Source: Ramlibacter sp. Leaf400
GTDB taxonomy: Bacteria > Pseudomonadota > Gammaproteobacteria > Burkholderiales > Burkholderiaceae_C
DNA length: 64,000 nt
Assembly: GCF_001424545.1 (NCBI RefSeq)
Contig: NZ_LMQL01000005.1
Coordinates: 1 to 64,000, forward strand
Direction of reading: 5' to 3'
The position numbers were made by a program, and so were the translations under genes. Of the stretch, positions 33,480 to 59,328 are shown in pieces. Every line of letters begins with the position of its first letter. Position 1 is the first letter of the stretch. The notes under the pieces were generated by a model that ran no database searches, was not told the origin of the DNA, and saw only the letters and a list, made by a program, of their open reading frames with translations.

Positions 33480-33527
33480 GCCGGGCCCGCGCCCGGCTTT
33501 TCAGCCGGGCCGGGTGCCCGGCTTTTT
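33480..33527 (+). terminator. Two tandem rho-independent terminators after livK
   Basis: First hairpin GCCGGGC-CCGC-GCCCGGC with TTTT (33480-33501); second GCCGGGC-CGGGT-GCCCGGC with TTTTT (33504-33527). Both stems are perfect 7 bp. The second runs into the stop codon of the convergent TrpE/PhzE-like gene. Confidence 0.85.
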
Positions 33528-35482
33528 CATGGGCGCGGCAGGGCGGCCAACTGCTCGATGACGGAACGCAGCAGCTGCCGCGCGGCCTCGTCGCAGAGCA
33601 GGGAGTCGGGGCGGTACAGCAGGCACGCCAGACGATCCCGGGTGAGCACCACCGGTCGGCCGTCGGCATCGGTGGCGAGCACCTGCCAGTCCGGCGGCGG
33701 CTGCACCAGCTCCAGCGTGGCGTAGCGGCCGGCGCCGAAAGTCTCGCCGGTGTCGGTGCGGGTGCAGCGCAGGGCGCGGCCGTGTTCGCCGGCGACCGGC
33801 CGGATCTGCGCGCCGGCCTGCGCGAGCAGGCGGTAGGCCGCGTCACCGATGGCGACGAGGGCCGGACCTTCCGGTGTGGGGGCCGTCCCGGCGAGCAGGT
33901 GGACCGCATCGACGTCGCCCTCGGTGTCGATGCCGAGCGACGCCAGCGTGTCGGCAAGCGCGGCCTCGAAGGGATCGCCTTGCGCCAGCAGGCGTACCGC
34001 CAACGGGGCGAGCGGGCCGGAGGCGACGCGGGTCGTACCGGGCGCATCCTCCAGGCCGAACGCGCGCCAGAGCGAACGCGTCTTCAGCCGCGACTCCGCT
34101 TCCTCCCGGCCGGGCGACGAGTCGGCCAGCAGGTCGCCGCCGGTGCGCACCTCGGCGACGTCGCCGTGCACGGCGGCGGCGCGCAGCAGCGTGCCCACCA
34201 GCGCATCGCCGTCCGCCGACACCTGGACCACCAGGCCGCCGTACCAGCCGCGCGGGCTGGCCTCCAGGTCGGCGATGGCGCGCAGGGCTTCGGCGCGCGG
34301 CGCGCCGGTGAGCATCACGGGCGCCGCGGTCGCGACGATCGCGTCCCAGGCGTCGCAGCCCTGGCGCAACTTGCCGCCCAGGCGATCGACGGCATGCACC
34401 ACCGTCGCCAGCGACATCGGCCGGCGCCGGTCGAGCAGGCGCAGGCTGCCCGGTTCGCACAGCGGCGCCAGGTCGTTGCGCAGAGCGTCGCTGCACACGG
34501 CCAGCGCCGCGGCATCGACCTCTTCGTTGAACAGCTCGCGCAGCGACTCGGCCTCGCCCTGGGCACCGGGGCGGCGGGCCACCGTGCCGCAGACGGGGAG
34601 CGATTGCACCTCGCCGCCGCGCACCACCAGCTGCAGGTCGGGCGAAGCGCCCAGCAGGCGCAGGCCGCTGCCGTCGTTGAGGAAGAAACTCGCCGGCGCG
34701 GGGTTGGCCGCACGGAGCCGCGCGAAGGCCTTTGACGGCGGCATCGCCACGCGGCGGCGGTAGCTCTGGCTGAGGGTGAGCGAAACCAGCGGGCGCTCGC
34801 GCAGGACCGTGAGGGCGCGGCCTACCATCTCGGCGTAGCCGCCGGGGGCGAAGTCGTCGCCGGGTGCGGGAACGCCGGGCGAAGTGGGGGTTGCGTCCAC
34901 CGGTTCGCTGGCCGCTTCGACGCCCGGGAGGCTAAGTTGCACGAAGGACCATCGCCCGTCGGCATCGCGCCGCAGCAGGCGCTCGGGGAAGTAGAAGACG
35001 CCGAGTTCTGGATTGCCGCCTCCGCGGGGATGACGGGAAGGGGGGCCGTCACCACCGGCATGAATGCCGTCACCCCCGCGGAGGCGGGGGTCCAGTGCTT
35101 CCGTCTTCCTGGCCAGCCGATGCGCCTCGAACCGCAACGCCCCCAGCAACAGGACATCCGGCGAAGGCTGGAAGCAGCGCAGCAACCCCCGCAACTGCGC
35201 GACCGGTGAAACGCCAGCGCCGCGTCGCAATCCCGAACGCCAGCCCTGCAGCGCCTGCGACCCGAACAAGGCCGCCCCGAACCCCGTCAGCGCCCGGACC
35301 TCCACCCCGTCCTCGAACACCCCGATCCGCAGCGCCGGCCGCGCGACCAGCGTGGCCTGCAGCGGGTGCAGCCCCGCGATGCCGGCGTCGACGCCGAAGT
35401 ACAGGCCTTCGCAAGCATCGAGCGCGGCGAGCGCCCGTTCGGCCTCTTCCGGCGAACAGGCGCCGCGCTCGATGCGCATCAT
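33527..35482 (-). CDS. TrpE/PabB/PhzE-like chorismate-binding protein fused to a degenerate glutaminase-like domain
   Basis: 651 residues. The central part is a chorismate-utilizing domain (LLGASPDLQLVVRGGEV; RNDLAPLCEPGS; TVVHAVDRL; VMLTGAPRAEALRAI; ADSSPGREEAES). The Glu-His pair that normally precedes the RND motif, including an Mg-binding Glu, aligns with Ala-Leu. The last ~140 residues follow a class-I glutamine amidotransferase pattern (as in PhzE) but the nucleophile elbow GVCLGHQ reads GDAAYRL, RYHS reads RYAT, and FHPES reads YRPDS: all three catalytic residues are gone. Residues ~127-157 are translated from a REP-like repeat. ATG overlaps the Bug gene stop. Product unknown; an ADIC/anthranilate-type enzyme or a non-catalytic relative. 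Confidence 0.75.
   Translation of the reverse strand: MMRIERGACSPEEAERALAALDACEGLYFGVDAGIAGLHPLQATLVARPALRIGVFEDGVEVRALTGFGAALFGSQALQGWRSGLRRGAGVSPVAQLRGLLRCFQPSPDVLLLGALRFEAHRLARKTEALDPRLRGGDGIHAGGDGPPSRHPRGGGNPELGVFYFPERLLRRDADGRWSFVQLSLPGVEAASEPVDATPTSPGVPAPGDDFAPGGYAEMVGRALTVLRERPLVSLTLSQSYRRRVAMPPSKAFARLRAANPAPASFFLNDGSGLRLLGASPDLQLVVRGGEVQSLPVCGTVARRPGAQGEAESLRELFNEEVDAAALAVCSDALRNDLAPLCEPGSLRLLDRRRPMSLATVVHAVDRLGGKLRQGCDAWDAIVATAAPVMLTGAPRAEALRAIADLEASPRGWYGGLVVQVSADGDALVGTLLRAAAVHGDVAEVRTGGDLLADSSPGREEAESRLKTRSLWRAFGLEDAPGTTRVASGPLAPLAVRLLAQGDPFEAALADTLASLGIDTEGDVDAVHLLAGTAPTPEGPALVAIGDAAYRLLAQAGAQIRPVAGEHGRALRCTRTDTGETFGAGRYATLELVQPPPDWQVLATDADGRPVVLTRDRLACLLYRPDSLLCDEAARQLLRSVIEQLAALPRP
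35010..35103. repeat. REP-like doublet inserted in frame in the TrpE/PhzE-like gene
   Basis: Left unit ATTGCCGCCTCCGCGGGGAT and right unit CACCCCCGCGGAGGCGGGGG flank a spacer, as in the intergenic copies. On the minus strand it is read as LDPRLRGGDGIHAGGDG and SRHPRGGGNPEL, with no stop codon or frame change, between ordinary-looking protein segments. Confidence 0.8.
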
Positions 35483-36486
35483 TCCATCTTGATGCCGGTG
35501 CGCTTGATGACAGGCGTCATCGTGCGCAGTTCCTGCTGCATGAAGCGCGCAAGGTCCTGGGGCGATCCGCCGATGGGCTCCATGTACTGCGCGTGCATCT
35601 TCTCCTTGGTCTCGGGCATGGCGAGCACCGCGTTGATCTCCTGGTTCATGCGCCGCACGATGTCGTCGGGCGTGCTGGCCGGCGCCATGATGGCCATCCA
35701 GGCCAGGTTCTCGATCTCGGGCAGGCCGGCTTCCTTCATGGTCGGGATGTCGGGCGTCAGCGCGCTGCGCTTGGCGGTGGAGACGGCCAGCGTGCGCAGC
35801 TTGCCGGCCTTGACCTGGGGCAGCACGGCGACGGCCGGCACGCAGGCGAACTGCACGTCGCCCTGCAGGATGGCCAGGACCGCCAGCGGCGACGACGCGT
35901 AGGGGATGTGCACCGCGTAGGTGTCGGTCTTGACCTTGAGCAGCTCGATGCCCAGGTGCGACAGGCTGCCCACGCCGGTGGAGGAGAAGTTGAACTTGCC
36001 CGGGTTCTGCTTCATGGCACCGACCAGGCCGCGCAGGTCGTTGATGCCCGAGTCGCTGCGCACCGTGCAGACGTTGGCCTGGCCGCCGGCCAGCACCACC
36101 GGCTTGAGCTCGGTGAACGGGTTGTACGGCAGGTTCTTGTAGAGCACCGTGTTGTAGACCAGCGGACCGTTGGTGCTGATCACGTAGGTGTAGCCGTCGC
36201 CGGGCGACTTGGCCACGGCGCCGGTGCCGTTGTTGCCCCCGGCGCCGGGGCGGTTCTCCACCACCACCGGCTGGCCCAGGCGCGGCGAGAGGCGCTCGGC
36301 GACGATGCGCGCCGCGACGTCGGGCGAGGAGCCCGGGCCGTAGGGCACGACGATGCGCACCGGCTTGTTCGGCCAGCCCGAGCTGGATGCAGCGGCCTGC
36401 TGGGCGCCCGCGTTGAGCGAGAAACTGGCCAGGCCGGCGGCGGCCAGGGCGGTGGTGAAGAGGCGGCGGGACAAGAGCGTTTTCAT
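35479..36486 (-). CDS. Bug/TctC-family periplasmic receptor
   Basis: 335-residue receptor; signal peptide with double Arg (SRRLFTTALAAAGLASFSLN) and cleavage after AGA near residue 28. Motifs VRIVVPYGPGSSPDVAARI, VVENRPGAGGNNG, FNFSSTGVGSLSHLG and TPDIPTMKEAG. Its start overlaps the chorismate-mutase-like gene and its stop overlaps the TrpE/PhzE-like gene, both by 4 bp, so the three proteins are made together. A solute receptor between two chorismate-family enzymes is unusual; its ligand may be an aromatic or cyclohexadienyl acid. No TctAB partner nearby. Confidence 0.87.
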   Translation of the reverse strand: MKTLLSRRLFTTALAAAGLASFSLNAGAQQAAASSSGWPNKPVRIVVPYGPGSSPDVAARIVAERLSPRLGQPVVVENRPGAGGNNGTGAVAKSPGDGYTYVISTNGPLVYNTVLYKNLPYNPFTELKPVVLAGGQANVCTVRSDSGINDLRGLVGAMKQNPGKFNFSSTGVGSLSHLGIELLKVKTDTYAVHIPYASSPLAVLAILQGDVQFACVPAVAVLPQVKAGKLRTLAVSTAKRSALTPDIPTMKEAGLPEIENLAWMAIMAPASTPDDIVRRMNQEINAVLAMPETKEKMHAQYMEPIGGSPQDLARFMQQELRTMTPVIKRTGIKME

Positions 36487-36863
36487 GGTTCGATCGGTTC
36501 GGTCTGCTGGAACAAGTCGCCTTCGGCGGCCACGAAGCCGGCCACGAGCGTGCGGTAGGTCGATTCCACGATGGCCGGCAGGCCCGGGAACGAGGCTTCG
36601 TGCTCAGCCGCCAATCCTCGCACACGTTCGAACACCTGGGCCTGGCGGGCAGGGGCCTGCACCTGGAAGGCGTCGCGCTTGAAGCGGGTGGCATCGCGCA
36701 CGCACTGCGCGCGCTGCGCGAGCAGCGCGACGATCTGCTCGTCGAGCGAATCGATGCGCTGGCGCAGGTCGGCCAGGGTCGGGGCCACGGGCTGGTAGGC
36801 CGGGTCCTTGAAGCGGCGCACCGGCGGCGTGGTGGTGGAAGGTTCGCTGGAGGAAGAGGGCAT
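36483..36863 (-). CDS. Chorismate mutase / isochorismate-pyruvate lyase (PchB-like)
   Basis: 126-residue AroQ-fold protein. After a Ser/Thr/Pro-rich leader, helix 1 reads LADLRQRIDSLDEQIVALLAQR, followed by CVRDATRFKRD and APARQAQVFERVRGLA; the RFK...AP.R pattern and loop are those of PchB, which splits isochorismate to salicylate and pyruvate and also has weak mutase activity. Catalytic Arg and Lys positions (first-helix Arg, loop Lys) are retained. It heads the three-gene overlap with Bug receptor and TrpE/PhzE-like genes, 69 bp after an MFS gene on the same strand. Confidence 0.82.
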   Translation of the reverse strand: MPSSSSEPSTTTPPVRRFKDPAYQPVAPTLADLRQRIDSLDEQIVALLAQRAQCVRDATRFKRDAFQVQAPARQAQVFERVRGLAAEHEASFPGLPAIVESTYRTLVAGFVAAEGDLFQQTEPIEP

Positions 36864-58948: not shown

Positions 58949-59000
58949 AGGTCGAAATTGTAGGCGGCCCGCTTTGCGTTTACATCTAGAATCGTCTTCG

Positions 59001-59242
59001 TTGGTGCTCGCGGTGTGGTTCGCATGCCGCAGTTCAACGGGAAGCAGGGAGCCCGATCCGCCCGCGCGAAACCAAGGTCTCGCGCGCGGCATTGAAGGCC
59101 AACCTGCGCTGCCCCCGCAACGGTAAGCGGAAGGCGTCCTGGAAAGAAGGACGCCCCTCCATCCCCCCGCCACTGGCGCCCTTCACGGCGCGCTGGGAAG
59201 GCCGATGGAGCGTCATTCCGCCAGCCCGGATACCGGCCAACA
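59001..59242 (+). ncRNA. Cobalamin (AdoCbl) riboswitch
   Basis: Conserved pieces appear in the right order: TTGGTGCTCGCGGTG at the 5' end, GGGAAGCAGGGAG, the B12-box region GCCAACCTGCGCTGCCCCCGCAACGGTAAG, CCACTGGCGCC...GGGAAGGC, and the closing GCCAGCCCGGATACCGGCC. A -10-like TAGAAT sits at 58987-58992. It precedes btuB by about 85 bp and is expected to shut off the cobalamin uptake operon when adenosylcobalamin is plentiful. Confidence 0.95.
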
Positions 59243-59328
59243 CGGTGGCCGCGCCTCGTGCGCGGCCGTGTTCGCCCATCCGCCGGCGGGGAAGCCGGCG
59301 CGGGCACTAGCACTGTGTCTGTTCCAAC

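Follow-up and report, generated by a model that had tools for sequence, protein, structure and literature searches.

A PchB-like protein, its Bug receptor and a disarmed anthranilate-synthase-like protein in Ramlibacter sp. Leaf400 look like an uncharacterised aromatic-acid system

Why should the gene of a periplasmic solute receptor lie between genes for two proteins whose folds are those of chorismate-type enzymes? The question is raised by an operon in a 64,000-nucleotide stretch of Ramlibacter sp. Leaf400 DNA (contig NZ_LMQL01000005.1, positions 1 to 64,000; henceforth referred to as the window), in which three minus-strand genes at positions 33527-36863 have 4 bp (ATGA) in common at each junction. 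An earlier note on this DNA had read them as overlapping genes for a PchB-like mutase, a Bug receptor and a TrpE/PhzE-like protein with eroded catalytic motifs, and we found the overlaps and the identities of the first two products as it had described them (Table 1), PchB itself being the best match of the first product in a sequence search of the Protein Data Bank (PDB; 2h9d/3rem, 3.2e-6). Judged by sequence, the combination of a solute receptor with two proteins, a small one resembling chorismate mutase and one resembling anthranilate synthase (henceforth the large protein), looks like an uncharacterised aromatic-acid system. The reading that we favour, at slightly less than even odds (about 0.45), is that the operon would be a cassette for the uptake and processing of an aromatic acid that feeds gentisate, together with a repurposed and probably metal-free protein of the MST fold.

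Table 1. Position in the window of the operon genes and of features within the large gene
Feature	Position	Strand	Evidence
PchB-like (AroQ fold) protein, 126 residues	36483-36863	-	Pfam CM_2 1.4e-15
Bug/TctC periplasmic receptor	35479-36486	-	Pfam TctC 1.1e-67
TrpE-clade-3/PhzE-like protein, 651 residues, synthase and glutaminase domains disarmed	33527-35482	-	Pfam Chorismate_bind 1e-43
Synthase (MST) domain of the 651-residue protein, its best-conserved part	34082-34840	-	Member alignment
Class I glutaminase domain, degenerate, with Gly for Cys and Arg for the HPE His	33530-34012	-	Alignment; Foldseek over both domains of PhzE 3r75
In-frame dispersed palindromic repeat, about residues 127-155 of the 651-residue protein	35018-35104	-	Gapped in 7/7 other members

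A neighbourhood survey found the PchB-like, Bug and large genes in this order in six of eight loci (the window, L019, L021, L022, L023 and L025), so the three genes are conserved together. At L020 the large gene stands alone, with the pair of PchB-like and Bug genes on another contig of the same genome (L098); at L024 the large gene and then Bug are present, the contig ends on the upstream side, and the genome yielded no PchB-like gene. The ATGA overlap of the PchB-like and Bug genes is preserved in all five other three-gene loci, and the junction between Bug and the large gene is looser: L019 and L021 show an overlap at TTG, L022 and L025 have a gap of a few bases, and L023 has no usual start codon nearby. 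Common flanks are found at L019, L021 and L022, and those of the window, L023 and L025 each differ. Among 299 genomes of the window's family (probably Comamonadaceae), a PchB-like gene accompanies the large gene in 6 of 7 genomes, compared with 13 of the 292 others (Fisher p=1.9e-7; this and the p-values below are optimistic because the genomes are related).

By its residues the large protein is probably not a working anthranilate synthase. MST-family enzymes are known as Mg-dependent chorismate enzymes, and the large protein retains the Chorismate_bind fold, as judged from Pfam and from Foldseek matches of its AlphaFold model (pLDDT 85 from a 23-row alignment, <50 at residues 127-155) to TrpE, PabB, salicylate synthases and, across both domains, PhzE. 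We aligned eight members of its family with 14 TrpE-clade-3 proteins, leaving out L031, L033 and L067, whose translations were in the wrong frame, together with other clade-3 and PabB-size rows. The Glu before the RND motif, which the earlier note had aligned with Ala, has become Ala326 in the window; 8/8 members have Ala or Ser at this position, where 14/14 clade-3 proteins have Glu. Two active-site changes went beyond that note: the nucleophile-side Gln/Glu is Ser and the acid Glu of the SPE motif is Asp, each in 8/8 members (the columns come from the alignment, and the names given to these three classical TrpE residues are those we take to apply). The second Glu on the Mg side, Glu463, is unchanged in 8/8, so that the pair of Mg-binding Glu expected of an anthranilate or 2-amino-2-deoxyisochorismate (ADIC) synthase is reduced to its second site. 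We assume that the TrpE Mg positions correspond to Glu297 and Glu434 of MbtI. In MbtI, Mg is bound by these two residues (PMC8008425). The glutaminase domain is likewise eroded, as had been claimed, at its Cys and HPE His: the Cys column holds Gly (Asn in L024) and no Cys in any of the eight, the His is Arg in 8/8, and the 651-residue protein gave no GATase match in Pfam up to E=1. The Pfam search and alignment that the earlier note had called for thus found neither the Mg-binding pair nor the glutaminase residues intact. The rest of the pocket, namely His363, Thr392-Gly393, Tyr414, Arg434, Glu460, Glu463 and Lys467, is invariant across all eight members.

On sequence grounds, the large protein is an offshoot of the fused anthranilate synthases (TrpE clade 3) with members found only in the window's family. 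Its closest NCBIfam model is TrpE-clade3 (TIGR01815; 1.9e-66), at 224.5 bits well below the cut-off of 739.15. It shares with clade 3 and PhzE (PDB 3r74/3r75/3r76) the order of a synthase domain followed by a class I glutaminase domain, its Foldseek alignment with PhzE running across both at 16-17% identity, but it differs from them in the replaced and missing residues described above and, with 651 residues, from its clade-3 relatives in being shorter (these mostly have 725-783). Members were found in 7/299 family genomes (E<=1e-40, own genome included) and in Ramlibacter rhizophilus, eight in all. Besides the window, 399 genomes of the order gave zero matches at E<=1e-90, a threshold that weaker relatives could escape; a search of 398 genomes of the phylum gave 21 matches, 20 besides the window, of which the 14 that were aligned are intact clade-3 fused anthranilate synthases; and none of 603 matches in plasmid records covered >80% of the query, all being <60% identical. 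Among the seven full-length members (21 pairs), mean identity is 75% for the synthase domain but falls to 48% and 47% for the parts that precede and follow it, respectively, and the large protein, in which this domain remains the most conserved, is therefore not decaying. For the L019-L021 pair, the ratio of non-synonymous to synonymous substitution rates (dN/dS) is ~0.29 for the large protein, 0.17 for Bug and 0.13 for the PchB-like protein.

The PchB-like gene and its Bug gene form a wider core than the three-gene operon. A PchB-like profile matched 26/299 family genomes at E<=1e-15, 19 of them strongly; the seven weak matches (E 3e-16 to 4e-19) are left out of the 19-genome counts below. 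A wider profile matched 13/265 genomes of the order, with six strong matches besides the window and six weak ones (E 3e-21 to 5e-29), one of which, L169, is nevertheless counted among the 27 PchB-like loci considered here (the window, L019, L021, L022, L023, L025, L097-L110 and L163-L169). Bug follows the PchB-like gene in 25 of the 27, and these loci span three of the order's families (f1, to which the window belongs, and f3 and f4); L110 and L169 are without Bug, and the L109 Bug matches in two pieces. The earlier note had held the receptor to be an abnormal partner for such enzymes, which this association contradicts. The TctC domain and a signal-like N-terminus, the latter read by eye in seven sequences, place the window's Bug with the Bug/TctC receptors (2dvz, 5oei, the terephthalate-binding 8hka and Bug27, 2qpq), from which the window-type Bugs stand apart as a group linked to the PchB-like gene: 23 PchB-linked Bugs are 44-84% identical to that of the window compared with 26-37% for 22 others in the fetched loci, the exception among the unlinked being that of L024, which is 61% identical and adjoins a large gene. 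Neither the pair nor the three-gene operon is described in open-licence literature, among the titles and abstract openings of the matches listed.

Setting the window aside, 24 loci have the pair, and in eight of them it lies in a salicylate or gentisate operon. At six (L103, L104, L105, L106, L107 and L109) it stands between the beta subunit of a ring-hydroxylating oxygenase and a Rieske ferredoxin, and a LysR-type gene lies alongside. For L106, salicylate 5-hydroxylase NagGH is matched by the alpha subunit (chain A, PDB 7c8z_A, 2.9e-236) and by the beta subunit (chain B, 7c8z_B, 1.6e-63), and the other five pair-linked alphas are 79-97% identical to that of L106. These six loci thus resemble the nag operon, with nagG/nagH-type genes beside the pair, genes that do not lie beside it in the window. 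Most operons of this kind differ in doing without the pair: alpha matches at E<=1e-170 occur in 92/299 family genomes, and among the best 30 hydroxylase loci five have the pair whereas 23 of the 25 others have beta and ferredoxin within ~1.5 kb and no pair. Within one genus, of two hydroxylase operons (L113 and L112) one has the pair and the other is without it. The linked oxygenase was also considered as an anthranilate dioxygenase, and this was rejected for L106, the one locus compared, which scored 382 bits with AndAc against a cut-off of 750 and 788 bits with salicylate 5-hydroxylase in the PDB search. As a separate observation, a gene resembling RidA/YjgF by eye follows the ferredoxin in L106 (L106:8961-9452) and has a homologue in L104.

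At the two remaining loci, L165 and L167 (family f4), the pair lies inside a gentisate operon. By NCBIfam, L165 encodes a gentisate 1,2-dioxygenase (567 bits, cut-off 442), a 3-hydroxybenzoate 6-monooxygenase (726, cut-off 459) and a maleylacetoacetate-type isomerase (290, cut-off 171), as well as an FAH-family hydrolase that scores below its model cut-offs; L167 has members of the same clusters. Placement within six hydroxylase and two gentisate operons favours the aromatic or cyclohexadienyl-acid system suggested in the earlier note, but not the export that it had included, because the two MFS genes near the operon, though present in the window as noted, are not conserved: they had no counterpart (38% identity over 60% length) in 21 related loci and were rejected as operon partners.

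Co-occurrence was also counted across the family. A PchB-like gene is accompanied by any oxygenase match in 18/19 genomes compared with 74/280 (p=2.5e-9), and still in 12/13 compared with 74/280 when the six adjacent loci are removed (p=2.3e-6). Oxygenases of at least 70% identity (salicylate 5-hydroxylase) occur in 11/19 compared with 63/280 (p=0.0015), and a type at 64-68% identity, found in 18 genomes and including the own genome's copy, in 7/19 compared with 11/280 (p=2.7e-5). The large gene co-occurs with an oxygenase match in 6/7 compared with 86/292 genomes (p=0.004), a figure that we leave out of the support, as two oxygenase types are mixed in it. A gentisate 1,2-dioxygenase above cut-off was found in 5/5 chosen genomes, own genome included, and in 0/14 controls.

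The active site of the PchB-like protein is described here with PchB numbering (Arg14, Arg31, Lys42, Gln90). Like PchB of Pseudomonas (PDB 2h9d), it has the AroQ fold and the two Arg and the Lys, which are kept in 27/27 PchB-like proteins; against the NCBIfam isochorismate lyase model it reaches 52.4 bits, short of the cut-off of 126. The equivalent of Gln90, the active-site Gln of the lyase, is Gly in the window. It is Gln in five of the six hydroxylase-linked proteins (Leu in L107), in both gentisate-linked ones and in L102, L108, L163 and L164, and Gly, Glu or Asp in all 11 proteins of the window's clade (support 100/99); the PchB-like genes read in genomes with the large gene all fall in this clade and are without the Gln (7/7 for both). 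A second difference concerns a position at which PchB has Val and chorismate mutases have Glu (PMC12329711), and at which the PchB-like family has Gln in 26/27. The family differs from PchB thirdly in an extra N-terminal tail outside the AroQ fold (EP...RRFxDPxYxP, window 36780-36863), kept in most members, with E-P, R-R and P invariant in a 16-row alignment; exceptions are L110 and L165-L168, where it varies, and L169, which lacks it. The tail could dock a partner. Independently of the operon, a weak PchB-profile match in a genus-mate directly adjoins a TrpE-size gene (G198:C1:519779-520872).

In the favoured reading, the operon would be a derived member of an uptake and processing cassette of the order (probably Burkholderiales). 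The core is the PchB-like AroQ-fold protein with its own Bug, and some lineages have this pair built into salicylate-to-gentisate or gentisate operons. The acid that Bug would capture and deliver for uptake would be a hydroxybenzoate or one of isochorismate type; the PchB-like protein would then act on this acid or bind it, with the result that the gentisate route receives a hydroxybenzoate. One clade has a third gene added to the pair, a fused anthranilate synthase that has lost its glutaminase residues and one Mg ligand. We infer that the conserved His/Arg/Lys/Thr-Gly pocket of this third protein continues to bind a ligand resembling chorismate or salicylate, and that the protein partners the PchB-like protein without metal instead of serving as a synthase of anthranilate, aminodeoxychorismate or isochorismate. 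A bolder form, which we consider improbable, is an undescribed route in which Bug would import an isochorismate-type (enolpyruvyl) or related acid, the PchB-like protein would cleave it as a lyase to a hydroxybenzoate destined for gentisate, and the clade's metal-free anthranilate-synthase fold would add a new step; to our knowledge that protein would then be the first of the MST fold to do without metal.

Several observations weigh against the cassette. The derived pair occurs without the large gene in a genus-mate, G272 (L097), which has flanking genes in common with the window. Sixteen of the 24 other pair loci (five three-gene loci, seven others in the window's family and four in f3) have no recognised aromatic operon, although not every neighbour was annotated; at L166 (f3) the neighbours AIM24, M48 peptidase, RNB and an ammonium transporter gave no functional hint, nor did those of the solo loci. 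In the own genome, the sole gentisate dioxygenase and the sole oxygenase relative found sit on other contigs, the latter (66% identical, the only match at E<=1e-170) at G000:C9:74912-76204 without pair or ferredoxin. The test that gave p=2.3e-6 counts the 64-68% oxygenase type, which has no assigned substrate, and with oxygenases of at least 70% identity the association without adjacent loci is not significant (5/13 compared with 63/280, p=0.16). The figure of 5/5 for gentisate dioxygenase comes from a chosen sample of genomes. Loss of the Gln, finally, is not exclusive to the window's clade, because L107 (Leu), L110 and L166 (Gly), L168 (Glu) and L169 (His) are also without it.

The alternative that survives best, though we regard it as doubtful, is that the large protein is a neofunctionalised enzyme which would catalyse a novel reaction, independent of metal, on a ligand that is a hydroxybenzoate or derives from chorismate, the PchB-like protein doing the next step much as PchB follows PchA in making salicylate. 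Its replacements are uniform at two positions (Ser and Asp) and confined to Ala or Ser at the third, the remaining pocket is invariant and the synthase domain highly conserved, and the operon coupling resembles that of an MST enzyme with a PchB-type lyase; yet one Glu of the presumed MbtI-type Mg pair is gone and the PchB-like partner has lost its Gln too. Less likely still, we think, is a non-enzymatic sensing role in which Bug, the PchB-like protein and the large protein would make up a module that responds to a ligand and adjusts uptake or regulation. Two folds for chorismate-type ligands with replaced catalytic residues would sit well beside a receptor in such a module, as would an N-terminal tail able to dock a partner. 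The PchB-like proteins of the hydroxylase and gentisate operons, however, keep Arg, Arg and Lys and mostly the Gln (7/8), which suggests chemistry in the parent system. A chorismate-binding regulator, the earlier note's other proposal, is conceivable; no DNA-binding Pfam domain matched in any of the three operon proteins.

Housekeeping roles were considered and set aside: a strong TrpE-size match is present in 19/19 genomes and a stronger separate CM_2 match, in a frame of 362-620 codons, in 14/14, these genes being named by size and score only. That the large protein substitutes for aminodeoxychorismate synthase (PabB) in folate synthesis is very unlikely. Apart from the large protein itself, all eight carrier genomes are without a Chorismate_bind match beyond the TrpE-size one, and four of 11 chosen non-carrier genomes do possess a second gene (of PabB size in three, a fragment in one), but this pattern is weak, the sample being small and chosen. 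The other seven non-carriers, three genus-mates among them, have the TrpE-size gene only, and relatives therefore manage without the large gene and without a PabB-size gene; moreover, the glutaminase residues and a Mg ligand are lost and the gene travels with the PchB-like and Bug genes. That a TrpE-size protein is the sole Chorismate_bind match in these seven family genomes also bears, as an observation in its own right, on p-aminobenzoate synthesis.

The window's large gene carries a palindromic repeat of the GTCATTCCCGCG type, which has 213 forward matches in the genome (<=1 mismatch) compared with 9 for the reversed control; its arms lie within the gene at 35023 (1 mismatch) and 35069 (2 mismatches), and it adds ~27 residues that are seen in no other member. 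A gene caller using codon scores started the gene at 34828, past the repeat, and we retained the full 651-residue frame, given that alignment with the other members begins at about residue 9. Although the in-frame repeat and the late start call might suggest chance neighbours within a decaying region, this is the least credible reading, since the order is kept in 6/8 loci across at least four different flanks, the members align from near their start, dN/dS is well below 1 and the synthase domain is 75% identical. Elsewhere in the window, a cobalamin riboswitch (58985-59255, plus strand, 65 bits) looks ordinary and is followed by genes that resemble, by eye, those for a TonB receptor and cobalamin uptake or salvage.

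Overall, a conserved family that has kept its pocket and dropped a metal ligand offers a clean test of how the MST fold can be repurposed. Since the PchB-like/Bug pair is tied to operons for salicylate and gentisate, the degradation of salicylate and related acids may involve a step or a transport component so far missed, and this same link names the first ligands to test.

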